Positions 8,645 to 17,978 of a DNA stretch of 64,000 nt are shown one piece after another. Numbering within the stretch: the first letter of the stretch is position 1; every line of letters starts with the position of its first letter. Below the pieces are notes generated by a model. It did not search any database. It had not been told where the DNA came from and saw nothing but the letters and a program-made list of their open reading frames with translations. Source of the stretch: Microbacterium sp. p3-SID336 (lineage in GTDB: Bacteria > Actinomycetota > Actinomycetes > Actinomycetales > Microbacteriaceae); the NCBI RefSeq assembly GCF_025143365.1, contig NZ_JALXPE010000017.1, positions 1-64,000 on the forward strand, given 5' to 3'. The position numbers were made by a program, and so were the translations under genes.

Positions 8645-10036
8645 TCAGCGCCGACCGAGCTGCGTGGTGATCTCCGTCACCTGGTTGTAGATGGAGCGGC
8701 GCTCCTTCATCAGCTCACTGATCTTCTTGTACGCGTACATCACCGTGGTGTGGTCGCGGTTGCCGAACAGCTGCCCGATCTTCGGGAGAGAGAGGCTCGT
8801 GCGCTCGCGGCACAGGTACATCGCGATCTGCCGGGCGGTGGCGATCTGCTGGGAGCGGCTCGATCCGTACAGGTCGTCGACCGTGAGCTTGAAGTACTGC
8901 GCGGTCGCCGTGATGATGTCGGTCGGCGAGATGATGTTGTCCTCTGCCGTGTCGATGATGTCGCGGAGCACGGTCTGGGCGAGGGAGATGTCGAGCGCGG
9001 AGCGGTTCAGGCTGGCGAACGCGGAGACGCGGATCAGCGCACCCTCCAGCTCGCGGATGTTCGACGACACGACGGTGGCGATGTACTCGAGCACCTCGTC
9101 CGGGATGTGCAGCGCCTCGCTCTGCGCCTTCTTGCGGAGGATCGCGATGCGGGTCTCGAGGTCGGGCGCCTGCACGTCGGTGATGAGGCCCCACTCGAAG
9201 CGGCTGCGCATGCGGTCCTCGAAGCCCGTGAGATGCTTCGGCGCCACGTCGCTCGTGATCACGACCTGCTTGTTGTGGTCGTGCAGGGTGTTGAACGTGT
9301 GGAAGAAGGCCTCCTGGGTCTCGGCGCGACCCTGCAGGAACTGGATGTCGTCGATGAGGAGGATGTCGACGTCGCGGTAGCGCGCCTGGAAGGCGGCGCC
9401 CCGGTTGTTCGCGATCGAGTTGATGAAGTCGTTCGTGAACTCCTCGCTGGAGACGTAGCGCACCTTCACCCCGGCGTAGAGGGACTGTGCGTAGTCGCCG
9501 ATCGCGTGGAGGAGGTGGGTCTTGCCGAGGCCGGAGTCGCCGTAGATGAACAGCGGGTTGTAGGCCTTGGCCGGCGCTTCGGCCACGGCGACGGCTGCCG
9601 CATGCGCGAAGCGGTTGGACTGGCCGATCACGAAGTTGTCGAAGGTGTACTTGGGGTTGAGCCGCGACTCGTGGCGCAGCTGCGTGGGCTGTTCCATGGG
9701 GGACTCGACGCGGGCCGGCTCCTGGCGTCCGAAGTCGGCGACCGCGATCGGCGCCGTCGGCTGCTCCGCGAGTTCGTGGTTCACCACGACGCGGTACGAG
9801 GTGACCTCGTCCCCGATGTGGGTGAGCGCCTCCATGATCGGCAGCCGGAGCCGCTTGTTGATCTGGGCGGCGGTGAGGTCGTTCGGGACCTCCAGGTACA
9901 GCGTCGCCGCCATCACCCCGGCGGGGACGGCGAGGCTGAGGAAGCCCTGCAGCTGCGGGGTGACCCGATCGTCCGCCTCGAGCAGCTCCTGCACCGTGGT
10001 CCAGATCGGGACGTCGGGCTGGGCTGGTGAGGACAT
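8645..10036 (-). CDS. dnaA: Replication initiator DnaA
   Basis: AAA+ initiator that binds DnaA boxes and melts oriC. It has 463 residues: N-terminal domain I (1-85), a variable linker (about 90-125), AAA+ core with Walker A GDSGLGKT (166-173) and Walker B LLIDDIQF (226-233), and the C-terminal DNA-binding domain IV with the signature RDHTTVMYAYKKI. The linker is short compared with Streptomyces. The ATG has GGAG four bases upstream. The gene reads toward oriC and is flanked upstream by two further DnaA boxes, suggesting autoregulation. Confidence 0.99.
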   Translation of the reverse strand: MSSPAQPDVPIWTTVQELLEADDRVTPQLQGFLSLAVPAGVMAATLYLEVPNDLTAAQINKRLRLPIMEALTHIGDEVTSYRVVVNHELAEQPTAPIAVADFGRQEPARVESPMEQPTQLRHESRLNPKYTFDNFVIGQSNRFAHAAAVAVAEAPAKAYNPLFIYGDSGLGKTHLLHAIGDYAQSLYAGVKVRYVSSEEFTNDFINSIANNRGAAFQARYRDVDILLIDDIQFLQGRAETQEAFFHTFNTLHDHNKQVVITSDVAPKHLTGFEDRMRSRFEWGLITDVQAPDLETRIAILRKKAQSEALHIPDEVLEYIATVVSSNIRELEGALIRVSAFASLNRSALDISLAQTVLRDIIDTAEDNIISPTDIITATAQYFKLTVDDLYGSSRSQQIATARQIAMYLCRERTSLSLPKIGQLFGNRDHTTVMYAYKKISELMKERRSIYNQVTEITTQLGRR

Positions 10037-12787: not shown

Positions 12788-13420
12788 ATGAGTGCAGTGG
12801 AAGCGGAGCCCGCGGTTGCCGCGTCGCTGTTCGGCGATCGCATAGAGCTGGCTCGCGCGTTCACCGAGGCGCTCGCGCGCGAGGGGGAACAGCGTGGCCT
12901 CATCGGGCCGCTGGAACTCCCTCGGCTGTGGACTCGGCACATTCTGAACAGTGCGATCGCCGCGCCGCTGTTCCACGGGTCCGTTGCGGACATCGGCTCG
13001 GGCGCCGGGCTGCCCGGGCTGGTGCTGGCCATCGCGCGCCCCGATGTGTCATGGACTCTGATCGAGCCGATGGAGCGTCGCGTCACCTGGTTGAACGAGC
13101 AGGTCGCGGCGCTGGAGCTCGCGAACGTCACCGTGCTGCGAGCTCGCGCGGAGGACGTGAAGGCGGGTGAGGGGTTCGACGTCGTGACGGCGCGGGCGGT
13201 GAGTGCGCTCCGCACGCTCATTCCGCTGACCGCTCCGCTTGCGCGGGATGGGGGAGAGCTGACGCTGCTGAAGGGGCTGAACGCCGCCAACGAGATCGAG
13301 GCGGCGCAGAAGCAGATCAAGAAGTTCCGACTCTCCGACGTGCGGGTGGAAGTGCTGGGTGAAGGAGTCCTGCCGGAGACGACTCGCGTCGTTCGAGCCC
13401 GGGTGCGAGAGACGGCCTGA
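12788..13420 (+). CDS. rsmG: 16S rRNA (guanine-N7) methyltransferase
   Basis: RsmG (GidB) methylates G527 of 16S rRNA using S-adenosylmethionine; its loss gives low-level streptomycin resistance in other bacteria. It has 210 residues, with the SAM-binding motif DIGSGAGLPGLVLA at about 62-75, an acidic ribose-binding loop IEPMERRVTWL and the VTARAVSAL motif. The gene is the last of the rpmH-led run; the parS-rich gap follows 31 bases later. Confidence 0.97.
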   Translation: MSAVEAEPAVAASLFGDRIELARAFTEALAREGEQRGLIGPLELPRLWTRHILNSAIAAPLFHGSVADIGSGAGLPGLVLAIARPDVSWTLIEPMERRVTWLNEQVAALELANVTVLRARAEDVKAGEGFDVVTARAVSALRTLIPLTAPLARDGGELTLLKGLNAANEIEAAQKQIKKFRLSDVRVEVLGEGVLPETTRVVRARVRETA

Positions 13421-13451
13421 TTCCGGGAGCGTCCGGCTGTCGTCCACGCCG

Positions 13452-13467
13452 TGTTTCACGTGAAACA
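13452..13467. other. parS site (16/16)
   Basis: Perfect ParB-binding palindrome TGTTTCACGTGAAACA, 31 bases after the rsmG stop. Confidence 0.95.
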
Positions 13468-13967
13468 TGAAGCCTCGATCGCCGGCCGCGGGTGCCTCGG
13501 TCACCGAGAGGGTCCGTGGTGCGGGTTGATGGTGTGTGGCAGTGGCGTGTGCGTTCTCTGCTTGCCGCGAGGGCGCGGACCGTCTTACGTCCTGGGTGTT
13601 CTCAGGGCGTGAGGCTGCAGTGGTCCGCGCGACCGGATCTCCAGGATTGGGGATCGCGAGGTCTCGTTCGGGCGTCGTCGCGGTGGCGGCCGTGGGCGAC
13701 TCGCCTGTGCACGGGGATGTGCTCCGCGTGACGGAGTCCATTGTGACGGCTTCTGCTGGGCGGATGTCTCCCGCTGATCGAGGACTGTACGGGTGGATGG
13801 TTCCTCGCTGGTCGAGGACCGGTGCTGTTGAGGTGGGCACGCCGGGAGAGACGGGTTCGCCGAGCGTGCGGTATTACTCGGCACCCAGTTCCACCGGCCG
13901 GACTGATCGGTGGCCTGCGGGGTGGATCGGGGATGCATCTCCTCGGGTCAGGTGCTTCCCGCGCGCG

Positions 13968-13983
13968 CGATTCACGTGAAACA
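13968..13983. other. parS site (14/16)
   Basis: CGATTCACGTGAAACA differs from the consensus at positions 1 and 3; the central TTCACGTGAAACA is intact. First member of the roughly 123-bp repeat series. Confidence 0.8.
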
Positions 13984-14090
13984 TCGAAGTTCTCGCGTCC
14001 CGCGATGGTCTGCATTGGTTTTGGTGGGGGTGTGGCCGTTCGGGCGCGCCCCGGCGACCAGTCATTGGCGGTTGCGCTTTGTGGCTGCGG

Positions 14091-14106
14091 CATTTCGCGT
14101 GAAGCA
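14091..14106. other. Decayed parS (12/16)
   Basis: CATTTCGCGTGAAGCA has four changes, including one in the central CACGTG, so ParB binding may be lost. It is credible only because it lies exactly in register between the flanking sites of the tandem repeat. Confidence 0.5.
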
Positions 14107-14214
14107 TCACGCTGATCGAGTCCAACGATGGTCTACGTCGGCTTGGGCGGGCAGGGCTTTTCGGGCGAGGCACGGCGTTTAGTCGTTTGCGGTTGCGTTG
14201 TGGCGACGGGGCGG

Positions 14215-14230
14215 CGTTTCACGTGAAACA
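14215..14230. other. parS site (15/16)
   Basis: CGTTTCACGTGAAACA; only the outermost base differs from the consensus. Confidence 0.92.
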
Positions 14231-14620
14231 TCGAAGTGCTGGCGTTCAGCGGCTGGCTGGACCGCGTGGCGCGTGTCTATTCGATCGAGTCGGCGCGTGT
14301 CGTGGCTCGTGGCCGGTGCCCCTTTCGCGAAGGAGAGTCGCCCTCCAGTCGAAGTTCACCGCACGCCCGATAGCGTGGCCCGCCGCTAGGAAGCAGACCC
14401 CATACGGGACCAGAGGCTAACTGCACGATCTCTGCGTGGGTGTGTCCGTCAGGGGAGTTCGTTGCGACTAGCGACCACGGATTGTTGTCTTCTCGGCGCG
14501 GCGGTTCCCATGAGGGTGGGCGTTGGTGCCTTCACTATCGCCGGCAGTGGGCTGGGCGGTGTCGGCGGGGACGCGCGATGGCGATCAGGTGCTGAGGTCG
14601 CCGTCTTTGGCGCAGCGGGG

Positions 14621-14636
14621 CGTTTCACGTGAAACA
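14621..14636. other. parS site (15/16)
   Basis: CGTTTCACGTGAAACA; identical to the 14215 and 15007 sites, including the shared following bases TCGA at this and the 14215 copy. Confidence 0.92.
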
Positions 14637-14690
14637 TCGAGCTGCTCGTGTTCGGGCTGCTGAGATTCGCGGCCCATGTTGCGGTCTGGA

Positions 14691-14706
14691 CGTTTCACGT
14701 GAAACC
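14691..14706. other. parS site (14/16)
   Basis: CGTTTCACGTGAAACC; both outermost bases differ, the inner 14-base palindrome is intact. It lies only 70 bases from the previous site. Confidence 0.9.
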
Positions 14707-15006
14707 CCGAATCGGGCGCATTCGGCGGTGGTCAGATCGCCCGCATGGGCGGATCCTTCGGCCCGACCAGGGCGTGAGGAGGCTCGCGGACTTCGCCCTG
14801 GCGCTGGAGCGAGGGCCAGGACGCCGACGTGTCTGTCTGGAGGGGTAGGGACGGTCGGCGATCACGGCTTGCTGTTCCCCCGGGGGGCGGCGCCAACAAA
14901 GCGGGACGTGCTCGCGTTCAGCGATGGTCGGCACCGGGCTGGGGAGCGGGTGTCCGCTTGGGCGGGCGATGAAACCCTGCTGAGTTGAGTCCGATCGCGA
15001 CGGCGG

Positions 15007-15022
15007 CGTTTCACGTGAAACA
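15007..15022. other. parS site (15/16)
   Basis: CGTTTCACGTGAAACA at the end of a diverged repeat unit. Confidence 0.92.
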
Positions 15023-15343
15023 TGGAGTCGCATGCGCTCTGCGTTTGATGAGGACGTGCGGGCGGTCTTCGGTGTGATTTCTGACCACGGCCGTCTGGGC
15101 TGTTCATGGTGTCGCCGTTGCTGCCCGCCGCCGGGACGAGCGGGGGCTCGACGCCTCAACTGTCGCCGGCGCCGGTATCCGCGCGGTCCCGAAGGGTCAT
15201 CCGTAGGGGGTGGGGCGGAGGTCGCCGCGGCCATCCACGGGCGGAGCCCTGCCGTCAGGATGCAGCTTGGGGTTTCAGCTCACGCCAACGCGGGTCGGGG
15301 GGAGGTGGCGCGTTAACGGAGAGTCACGGCCGTGGCATCACCA

Positions 15344-15359
15344 TGTTTCACGTGAAACA
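15344..15359. other. parS site (16/16)
   Basis: Perfect TGTTTCACGTGAAACA, about 740 bases before parA. Confidence 0.95.
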
Positions 15360-15824
15360 CAGTGTTGAGGAGGCGCTTCGGTCGCTTGACATGTCCCCCG
15401 CTTGCGCGTCCGTGCCATCATCGTTCGCCAGCTGCCGGTAGCGGCCAGCGAGCCCCCATCCGGGCGAATCGCTGGAAGCGCCTGATCGGCTGGCCGCGCG
15501 GCGGAGGGAACGGCGATGTCGCTCCACGCTGAGGTTGTGCGAGCGGCGTCACCACGGGTTCCCGTGGGGAATGTCCATCTGTAGGAGGCCAATGCAGGCC
15601 AAGGTCGTCCAGTGACACACCTGTTTCGTTGCCGCATGGCTGCGGGGGCAGGCCGGGTCTGCCGCCGCGAGTGCCGTATGGCGACCTTCATCAGACGGGG
15701 ACGCCGGATCGCGTCCAGAGACGTGGCCGGGTCCAGACGATTCTCGGGGGTCTCTGCGCCATGGTGTCGGTGCGGCAGGCGAACGAGCGCGGGTGTACCA
15801 CGGTGCACGAGCCGGCGGGAACGG

Positions 15825-15963
15825 AGGGTGGGACTGGAGGGGAACCGGGGAGCGGGGACCGGAGGGCGGGGGCGGGGAGGGTGGGATCGGTGGGATCGGC
15901 GGGTGTGGACCGGGGCTGGGCGCGAGGAAGTACCGGGGAGCGGGGGAGGGGGTGATTCTGGGG
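15825..15963 (+). other. G-rich tract upstream of parA
   Basis: About 140 bases in which the plus strand has many runs of three to five G separated by one to seven bases (for example around 15855-15893). Such spacing could allow G-quadruplexes on the coding-strand RNA or leading-strand DNA. No gene or repeat unit explains it. It lies between the 15344 parS and parA. Confidence 0.5.
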
Positions 15964-16059
15964 CGACGTGCGGGCGTCGCCGGCCGCGGGAGGCGGCGCC
16001 GGGGTGAAGGACGTGCGCCGGGGGAGCGGCATCGGTGAACGAGGGTCGGTCCTGGCGAT

Positions 16060-16065
16060 TAGAGT
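16060..16065 (+). promoter_or_regulatory. parA promoter -10 element
   Basis: TAGAGT, 24 bases before the parA ATG, is the only good -10 in the interval. No clear -35 is seen. The parS site of the parA start lies about 25 bases downstream, within the range where ParB could block or modulate transcription. Confidence 0.45.
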
Positions 16066-16089
16066 GGAACGCGGCCCCGAAAGGAGTGG

Positions 16090-17013
16090 ATGTTTCACGT
16101 GAAACAGTCCGAGAAGACACCGTCGAACGACTCGTTCGGGATGGATACCCCCCTGGCGCGCGAACTCGCCGACCTCTCCGCTCGTCGCCGCGCACTGGAG
16201 GCCGTGACCGTCGAGTTCAGCGGGAAGACCCGCGTTCTCACGGTTTCGAACCAGAAGGGTGGCGTCGGCAAGACGACGAGCGCGGTGAACATCGCTTCGG
16301 CTCTCGCCGGCCTCGGGGCCACCGTCCTCGTGATCGACCTCGACCCGCAGGGCAACGCCTCGACGGCGCTCGGTGTGCCCCACAACGCCGACACACCCAG
16401 CGTGTACGACGTCCTGATCGACGAGTTCCCGCTCGCGGAGATCGTGCAGCCCAGTCCGGAGAACCCGCGACTCTTCTGCGCCCCCAGCACCATCCACCTC
16501 GCCGGCGCGGAGATCGAGCTCGTCGCGCAGGTCGCCCGAGAGCATCGTCTGCGTCGTGCCCTGGAGGATTACCTCGCCGAGCACCCCGTCGACTTCGTGA
16601 TCATCGACTGCCCTCCCTCGCTCGGGCTGCTCACGATCAACGCCTTTACGGCGGCGACTGAGGTGTTCATCCCCATCCAGTGCGAGTACTACGCGCTGGA
16701 GGGGCTGAGCCAGCTCCTCGGCAGCATCCAGATGATCCAGAAGCACCTCAACCCCGCGCTGCACCTGTCTACCATCCTCCTCACGATGTTCGACGGGCGC
16801 ACACGCCTCGCGCAGCAGGTCGCGGAAGAGGTGCGCACCCACTTCCCGACGCAGGTGCTGGACACTGTCATCCCTCGGTCGGTACGTGTATCCGAGGCCC
16901 CCAGTTTCGGCCAGACGGTCATCGCCTACGACGGTCAGTCCGCCGGGGCGATCGCCTACCGTGAGGCCGCCGTCGAGATCGCGTCCCGAGTGACGCAGAG
17001 CAAGGAGAGATAA
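16090..17013 (+). CDS. parA: Chromosome partitioning ATPase ParA
   Basis: Deviant Walker-A ATPase that drives movement of ParB-parS complexes. It has 307 residues, with the P-loop KGGVGKTT at 56-63, VIDLDPQGNAST for Walker A'/DNA-related contacts and VIIDCPPSLGLLTINA as Walker B. The first 40 residues precede the ATPase fold and are poorly conserved. The start is debatable: the ATG at 16090 has AAGGAG only three bases away and its first codons are the parS palindrome itself (MFHVKQ). The GTG at 16099 would have a more usual spacing of 12, and an ATG at codon 18 is also possible. parB begins on the last base of the stop codon. Confidence 0.97.
   Translation: MFHVKQSEKTPSNDSFGMDTPLARELADLSARRRALEAVTVEFSGKTRVLTVSNQKGGVGKTTSAVNIASALAGLGATVLVIDLDPQGNASTALGVPHNADTPSVYDVLIDEFPLAEIVQPSPENPRLFCAPSTIHLAGAEIELVAQVAREHRLRRALEDYLAEHPVDFVIIDCPPSLGLLTINAFTAATEVFIPIQCEYYALEGLSQLLGSIQMIQKHLNPALHLSTILLTMFDGRTRLAQQVAEEVRTHFPTQVLDTVIPRSVRVSEAPSFGQTVIAYDGQSAGAIAYREAAVEIASRVTQSKER
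16091..16106. other. parS site (16/16) in parA start
   Basis: Perfect TGTTTCACGTGAAACA whose first two bases are the T and G of the parA ATG. ParB bound here would cover the translation initiation region of its own operon. Confidence 0.95.
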
Positions 17014-17978
17014 TGGCGAAGCGCACGGGACTCGGCCGAGGCATCGGAGCCCTCATCCCCACGGCGGACCAGGCCGAGCGACCGGTCGACGTCTTCTTCC
17101 CCGGGGCCAGCCTGCGCCCCGCCGAGACGGAGGCCGTGGCCGCGCCCACGGCCGACGCCGACCTCGAAGCGGTGCCCGGGATCCACCTCATCCAGATCGA
17201 CCCGCAGGCCATCGTGCCGAACCCGCGCCAGCCGCGCACGCACTTCAACCCCGATGACCTCGCCGAGCTCGTGCACAGCGTGCGCGAGTTCGGTGTGCTG
17301 CAGCCCGTGGTCGTGCGGAAGAACGCCGACGGCGAGTACGAGCTCATCATGGGGGAGCGGCGCACCCGGGCCGCACGCGAAGCCGGCCTGGACGCCATCC
17401 CCGCGATCGTCCGTGACACCGCCGACGAGGATCTGCTGCGCGACGCCCTCCTGGAGAACCTCCACCGGTCGGAGCTGAACCCGCTCGAAGAGGCATCCGC
17501 CTACCAGCAGCTGCTCGAGGACTTCGGCATCACGCAGGAGGAGCTCGCGGCACGCATCGGTCGTTCCCGCCCCCAGATCAGCAACACGATCCGCCTGCTC
17601 AAGCTGCCGGTTCCCGTGCAGCAGCGCGTCGCCGCCGGTGTCCTCTCCGCCGGTCACGCCCGCGCGATCCTCAGCCTGGACAGCCCCGAGTCGATGCAGC
17701 GGCTGGCCGACAAGGTCGTGAACGAGGACCTCTCGGTGCGCGCCACCGAGGAGGCTGCCAAGGCGCAGCCGTCCGCCGGCAAGGCTCCCAAGCCGACCCC
17801 GGGCGCGCGTCGCGCCTACCTCGACGAGGTCGCCGGCAAGCTCGGAGACCGACTCAACACCCGGGTGCGCATCTCCCTCGGAGCGCGGAAAGGCCAGGTC
17901 ACGATCGATTTCGCGTCGATCCAGGACCTGAACCGGATTCTCGAGGAGCTCGGCGAAGAAGGCTACGGCCGGTCCTGA
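17013..17978 (+). CDS. parB: Chromosome partitioning CTPase ParB
   Basis: ParB clamp protein that binds parS, hydrolyses CTP and spreads along DNA. It has 321 residues: the N-terminal ParA-contact motif GLGRGIGALIP (6-16), the CTP-binding motif GERRTRAAREAG (114-125), a helix-turn-helix around 173-200 (QEELAARIGRSRPQISNTIRLL), and the C-terminal dimerisation region ending with DLNRILEELGEEG. The ATG overlaps the parA stop by one base, so the two are coupled. Confidence 0.98.
   Translation: MAKRTGLGRGIGALIPTADQAERPVDVFFPGASLRPAETEAVAAPTADADLEAVPGIHLIQIDPQAIVPNPRQPRTHFNPDDLAELVHSVREFGVLQPVVVRKNADGEYELIMGERRTRAAREAGLDAIPAIVRDTADEDLLRDALLENLHRSELNPLEEASAYQQLLEDFGITQEELAARIGRSRPQISNTIRLLKLPVPVQQRVAAGVLSAGHARAILSLDSPESMQRLADKVVNEDLSVRATEEAAKAQPSAGKAPKPTPGARRAYLDEVAGKLGDRLNTRVRISLGARKGQVTIDFASIQDLNRILEELGEEGYGRS

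Follow-up and report, generated by a model that had tools for sequence, protein, structure and literature searches.

Introduction

How do several parS sites come to stand together in one intergenic gap beside parA and parB? The question is raised by the window analysed here (the whole stretch of DNA, 64 kb in length), which is the oriC region of a Microbacterium-like chromosome. Its minus strand carries what we take, from their sequences, to be gyrB, recF, dnaN and dnaA, and its plus strand carries rnpA, yidC, a jag-like gene and rsmG (names presumed in the same way), followed by a gap and by parA and parB. The presumed dnaA frame at 8645-10036 lies ~3.4-6 kb from the parS cluster. The closest named relative of the window is Microbacterium sp. 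MYb54, with 91% in ParA. An earlier note on this DNA had proposed that three of the sites belong to decaying tandem repeats of about 123 bp, and that the centromere grows by duplication of this unit like a eukaryotic satellite. We found that some parS sites of the window appear to be tandem copies of a larger block, with a decayed spacer and a mostly preserved site, and that related species have this pattern too, with other blocks.

Results

The parS cluster of the window

The gap between rsmG and parA contains seven parS sites that are exact or have one mismatch, together with one decayed site, and a ninth site lies over the start of parA. The marks of a chromosomal ParABS system are present in the window, with parS palindromes clustered near oriC and parA and parB adjacent to each other (identified with Pfam). 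The features of the locus are as follows.

12788-13420, plus strand: rsmG, an open reading frame with a name presumed from its sequence; upstream border of the parS gap and tblastn anchor for the relatives
13421-16089, unstranded: rsmG-parA gap, 2669 bp (2.67 kb), with the parS cluster
13453-13466, unstranded: parS, exact (consensus match)
13969-13982, unstranded: parS, one mismatch of 14, starting unit 1 (consensus match and register test)
13969-14091, plus strand: tandem unit 1, 123 bp (register z 13.1 against unit 2; 66% identity to unit 2 in a six-unit alignment)
14092-14215, plus strand: tandem unit 2, 124 bp, opening with the decayed parS at 14092 (3 mismatches of 14)
14216-14229, unstranded: parS, exact, closing unit 2 and opening a short third copy (z 13.6 with 14092)
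14344-14386, minus strand: copied stretch of 43 bp from the beginning of a DUF3145 gene, inside the parS gap
14622-14635, unstranded: parS, exact, with weaker flank likeness to 14216 (z 7.4) and 15008 (z 7.2)
14692-14705, unstranded: parS, exact, flanks without clear kinship (consensus match, register test)
14888-15001, plus strand: possible unit copy without a parS of its own, running up to the 15008 parS (29 nt at 83% against 13986-14014)
15008-15021, unstranded: parS, exact (consensus match)
15345-15358, unstranded: parS, exact (consensus match)
16090-17013, plus strand: parA (Pfam AAA_31, CbiA)
16092-16105, unstranded: parS, exact, over the parA start, coding for MFHVKQ (consensus match and open reading frame)
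17013-17978, plus strand: parB (Pfam ParB_N, HTH_ParB, ParB_C)

Several other identities of the gap were considered and rejected. The eight gap ORFs tested gave no Pfam match, which speaks against a coding gap. An RNA gene was set aside, as Rfam returned no match, either for the window at gathering level or for 13400-16150 at E<=1, and no tRNA was found. A plasmid origin was dismissed, as the plasmid collection gave no match and the neighbourhood is chromosomal.

The exact parS core at the parA start (16090-16107 of the window) is present in 104 of 111 gaps of the genus. MYb54 has a further parS just upstream of rsmG, outside the gap (L001:4069-4082). In the gap of the window G exceeds C, and of the 114 gaps longer than 600 bp, 109 (the window included) have a positive GC skew; a leading strand free of constraint would be expected to look like this.

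A 123/124-bp repeat in the window

In our register test, parS was masked, the flanks were kept in register, and each of 45 site pairs was compared with 200 dinucleotide shuffles. The three sites described in the earlier note as 123 and 124 bases apart are indeed so spaced, with parS cores starting at 13969 (one mismatch in 14), 14092 and 14216 (exact), and the four bases said to be lost at the middle site correspond to 3 mismatches of 14 in the core and 4 of 16 in the longer form. The flanks of 13969/14092 scored 41 (z 13.1) and those of 14092/14216 scored 44 (z 13.6), and in neither case did any of the 200 shuffles score as high. The flanks of 13969 and 14216 are not alike (z 2.3), and the window therefore contains two full units and a short third one. 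Weaker links join 14216/14622 (z 7.4), 14622/15008 (z 7.2) and 14216/15008 (z 6.5). The internal landmarks that had been pointed out were recovered as well: GATGGTCT is present at 14004 and 14127, and the 17-base blocks at 14060 and 14181 share 15 identities. Further self-matches are 14034/14155 (48 nt, 75%) and 13971/14094 (58 nt, 71%).

A loose third copy, which was thought to end at the 15008 parS, held only in part. GATGGTC is found at 14923, and 14952-14967 matches 14137-14152 in 15 of 16 positions, but this match is ~23 bases out of register with the next parS. As a unit, 14888-15001 reaches z 8.3 if anchored at 14888, but this anchor was picked post hoc, and a score of 31 is within what shuffles reach without anchoring (mean 25.4, max 39).

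The likeness outside parS thus goes beyond composition in shuffled controls, clearly for the masked register pairs (0/200) and just so for the unanchored self-scan of the gap, in which the best score of 40 compares with a mean of 25.4 and a maximum of 39 in shuffles (0/500) and is only just significant. When parS was scored neutral, the top self-match lay instead at ~399 bp, with a score of 53 against a null maximum of 45 (40 shuffles). Tandem Repeats Finder reported no array at a 123-bp period in the window, and the units are at most 66% alike. The 123/124-bp repeats of the window are real but old, and the unanchored case for them is marginal.

The 43-bp stretch at 14344-14386 is 88-93% identical to the start of the DUF3145 gene in relatives. 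This gene is located away from parA in L243-L246 and in all eight closest genomes, and judged by these matches the stretch is a captured piece of distant DNA.

In-register repeats in the relatives

Of 345 genomes of the genus, 335 had a ParA match, and 120 regions were fetched, a non-random choice of the best listed matches to the ParA of the window among these 335. Together with the window and MYb54 (L001) this gave 122 Microbacterium loci, 11 of which had no measurable gap at first; eight of them were brought back in by taking a set length of 4.8 kb upstream, and three (L171, L198, L217) were lost at contig ends, which leaves 111 measured and 8 long gaps, 119 in total. The comparisons of genomes are all between species. 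The length of the 111 gaps ranges from 107 to 4782 bp (median 2065), and they contain 1-12 parS sites with at most one mismatch (median 5). In seven loci (L190, L210, L216, L219, L221, L225, L228) no convincing rsmG was found within 5 kb upstream of parA, so that the gap is longer still there or contains other genes.

After 17 of the 119 gaps with a REP-like repeat had been set aside, 102 gaps were analysed. In-register repeats bearing parS were present in 20 of them, including the window, and the other 82 had none. Among neighbouring pairs of parS, taken at 40-400 bp apart and scored as alike at z>=6 with 30 shuffles per pair, 44 of 325 had in-register flanks, compared with 2 of 217 pairs between genomes. 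These 44 are made up of 40 of 303 pairs in the 94 measured gaps without the REP-like repeat (in 18 genomes, the window included) and 4 of 22 pairs in the 8 long gaps (in 2 genomes). Four of the 20 array genomes (L136, L144, L161, L167) rest on a single weak pair with a score of 21-34, and two control pairs between genomes reach scores of 49 and 54. The spacing is 109-272 bp in 41 of the 44 in-register pairs, and in 31 of 504 cases adjacent spacings differ by no more than 5 bp, where 6.2 +- 2.5 were expected.

The clearest arrays are those of L132, L191, L225, L164, L186, L155, L189, L147 and L172. The array of L132 has seven sites and a unit of ~182 bp, with neighbours 38-73% identical. L191 has four sites at 206-208 bp, with copies 76-93% identical (three at 90-93%), and L225 four sites at 109-110 bp, with copies 74-91% identical. 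Copies that are ~90% identical were seen only in L191, in L225 and in one pair of L147. An alternating higher-order repeat in L225 seemed likely by eye and was rejected, as the identities follow no clean pattern.

Outside the genus, 40 regions of the family were sampled and gave 39 gaps (L255, without rsmG, belongs to the genus list). These have a median length of 721 bp and a median of 1 site, and 1 of 33 pairs was alike (L260); a separate pass over family and more distant loci found 0 of 17 pairs alike.

Independent arrays, a decayed site and a probable gain

When the 20 arrays were compared with each other by blastn, L116 and L117 were the only pair with common units. In this shared array the first site is broken in L116 and intact in L117 (four unit sites are kept), and the third unit site of L117 carries one change. 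In L146 there is one more unit, of 119 bp and bearing a parS, that is not seen in L153 and L149, in an alignment that is partly ambiguous; this is probably a gain within the trio.

The gap of the window, minus its last 80 bp, gave no blastn match (E<=1e-3, both strands) in the gaps of 118 relatives, and a deeper search of the eight closest genomes with the window gap returned only the DUF3145 fragment. A wider search with the gap, over 366 genomes of the genus, scored two candidates in each and covers the matches listed, and is weaker evidence for absence. The L132 array, again with two candidates scored in each of the 366 genomes, matches one of them, and in the genome of L132 itself it maps to a single location among the 40 of 73 candidates that were scored. 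In the candidates scored for it, the array of L225 occurs once in its own genome and is absent from two others tested, and that of L191 was found, among 7 genomes, only in its own gap, which also contains two inverted pieces of it.

Retention of parS and drift of the spacer

De novo repeats were identified with parS masked, and a partner site was allowed 8 bases either side, as masked alignments slip slightly. For the 90 exact parS sites in such repeats, many of which stem from a few arrays (L132, L186, L191), the partner had at most 3 mismatches in 45 cases and was exact in 26. Where the flanks had less than 85% identity, the partner was exact in 19 of 83 cases, where equal drift of parS and flanks would give 0.79, and it had at most 3 mismatches in 38 of 83. 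Of the 3272 control 14-mers taken from the flanks of all alignments, 3% were exact and 19% had no more than 3 mismatches. The remaining partners include 42 of the 83 that look like no parS (7-9 mismatches), some of them from low-complexity alignments, e.g. in L113, and here an alignment error would look the same as the loss of a site. Orthologous sites that could be aligned between related species are exact in 27 of 31 cases, where 0.97 were expected; this count excludes 14 of 45 sites that did not align, and a single trio supplies three of the seven species pairs. The counts within arrays and between species support the earlier suggestion that parS is kept while the rest drifts. The site outlasts its spacer.

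Repeats in the gap at large

A significant internal repeat is present in 55 of 110 gaps (those with the REP-like repeat included), and some gaps (e.g. L120, L129, L148, L149, L154) have tandem repeats that contain no parS. Considering repeats with a unit of at least 90 bp, 69 of 202 parS sites lie within them, where circular shifts gave a mean of 66.7 (sd 4.9). A duplication mechanism targeted at parS is not supported, since parS is not enriched in repeats, which suggests that duplication strikes the gap at large and not parS specifically, and that parS seems to ride along and to be retained.

A REP-like palindrome in some gaps

A REP-like palindrome (core GGTCGTTGAGCGAGCG) is found in the parS gap in the 17 cases set aside above, among them L232, L200, L196, L187, L211, L188, L204 and L184, with 1-18 cores each. 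In these gaps 39 of 92 parS sites are within 60 bp of the repeat. Counted over genomes, 13 of 13 matches lie inside the gap in G071, 17 of 20 in G307 and 10 of 17 in G329, and G196 has 66 matches, with none in its own gap among the matches listed. The core is absent from both strands of the 64-kb window at up to 2 mismatches of 16, and a REP origin of the window gap was rejected on this ground. L200 has a GIY-YIG ORF of 99 aa (L200:1389-1685, minus strand) among the REP-like repeats of the parS gap, and by eye a similar frame is present in the gap of L232. The ORF of L200 might be a partner of the REP-like repeat.

Discussion

Overall, we consider it quite probable that the gap is the centromere of the ParABS system, in which parS sites multiply by occasional tandem duplication, the spacers drift, most sites are selected and surplus ones decay. 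The rsmG-parA gap would be a chromosomal centromere, and occasional tandem duplication could copy any stretch of it, whereby a stretch bearing parS would add a new site. After copying, the spacer would drift under little constraint, most parS copies would be held by purifying selection for ParB loading, and surplus copies would decay, as may have happened at 14092. The copies were presumably made by slippage or unequal recombination, the predicted sites are presumably bound by ParB, and selection rather than gene conversion would keep them. In the alignments we see in-register copies, lineage-specific units, predicted sites kept above their spacers, one decayed parS in a shared array and one probable gain of a unit. 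The observation made in the earlier note was right, and its interpretation is partly supported. Its duplication reading is right in kind and is much better visible in the relatives, from which most of the evidence for duplication of parS-bearing units comes, than in the window; the centromere growth that it proposed may be turnover instead of a net increase.

Other explanations have to be weighed against this one. That parS alone is conserved and the rest is alike merely through the composition of a GC-rich gap has next to no likelihood: although the unanchored score barely exceeds shuffles and Tandem Repeats Finder sees no 123-bp array, this explanation is refuted by the masked flanks of the two neighbouring pairs, which beat 200 of 200 dinucleotide shuffles, and the between-genome control with real sequences yields only 2 of 217 pairs. 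It is very unlikely that ParB bridging, by favouring even distances between sites, produced the regular spacing without duplication. The 82 gaps without flank likeness still have 13 equal spacings against 4.7 expected, a value reached in 1 of 1000 random placements. However, the spacer sequences themselves are alike in 20 of 102 gaps, and the distance varies between species (109-272 bp, as given above), which argues against a common protein complex setting the spacing. The residual excess of equal spacings is also expected from decayed arrays; it fits them and leaves room for some selection on spacing.

A dispersed palindrome of the REP/BIME kind could have landed by or around parS and multiplied there, the copies being elements of a mobile type. 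The presence of such a repeat in some parS gaps, its closeness to many of the sites there and its occurrence elsewhere in some genomes would agree with this, but the window has no such core, and the arrays of L132, L191 and L225 have no match outside the parS gap in their own genomes among the candidates scored. We regard this origin as extremely unlikely. Directional selection for more parS, through the dosage of ParB or SMC loading, would make array growth an active process rather than passive duplication with retention. Gaps with arrays do have more sites (median 7, n=20) than the others (median 5, n=82; p=0.0003), but this difference is partly built in, because more sites give more pairs to test. 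In addition, parS is not enriched in repeats, and for Corynebacterium glutamicum the passages cited from PMC7083940 report that a single parS is enough for wild-type-like growth. Dosage as the driving force thus appears unlikely to us.

Returning to duplication with retention, a more far-reaching version of it is less likely than not, and we offer it only tentatively. In this version the Microbacterium gap is a satellite-type bacterial centromere, mostly noncoding, in which parS-bearing units (with REP-like palindromes in some species) may be amplified, decay and be replaced. Changes in the number and spacing of parS sites would then come from the turnover of units rather than from point mutations, and selection on parS dosage might play a part.

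Comparison with known systems

According to the passages cited, C. glutamicum has ten redundant parS sites over 35 kb, one in a coding sequence and nine intergenic (PMC7083940), and a study in Bacillus subtilis discusses clustered and scattered parS, where several sites likely improve robustness (PMC8357415). As far as these passages go, the origin-proximal clusters of both species are like the window in the kind of palindrome, in the origin region and in having several redundant sites. The sites of C. glutamicum are spread over 35 kb, whereas the cluster of the window lies in one gap by parA and some of its sites have duplicated spacers. The passages contain no account of how bacteria come by many parS sites, and titles and abstract openings among the matches listed from the open-licence literature hold no description of tandem duplication of parS units on a chromosome. 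In Microbacterium, parS copies that differ in age, unit length and degree of decay are visible within one genus, which turns the number and spacing of sites into a natural experiment on redundancy and on the loading of ParB and SMC.

With REP/BIME repeats, some gaps of the genus share a similar repeat (17 of 119), which can flank parS and is dispersed in some genomes; its core is absent from the window. Plasmid centromeres such as F sopC consist of tandem iterons that are short and near-identical. There, as here, the binding site is repeated head to tail by the partition genes, but the Microbacterium units are mostly 109-272 bp long, are diverged and vary from species to species, and in the window the cluster adjoins parAB but the site of unit 2 has decayed.

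Eukaryotic centromeric satellites are local tandem arrays with lineage-specific units and fast turnover. The Microbacterium arrays have these properties in common with them: the copies lie head to tail (two complete units plus a short third one in the window, seven sites in L132), and the units are lineage-specific and turn over rapidly. In contrast to long arrays of many copies, there are 2-7 parS sites per array, homogenisation is limited, a protein-binding site is kept, and there is no evidence of drive. The satellite likeness drawn in the earlier note thus holds only in part, for tandem units and turnover and not for copy number. The arrays are a prokaryotic parallel in which ideas on centromere turnover can be tested without meiosis.
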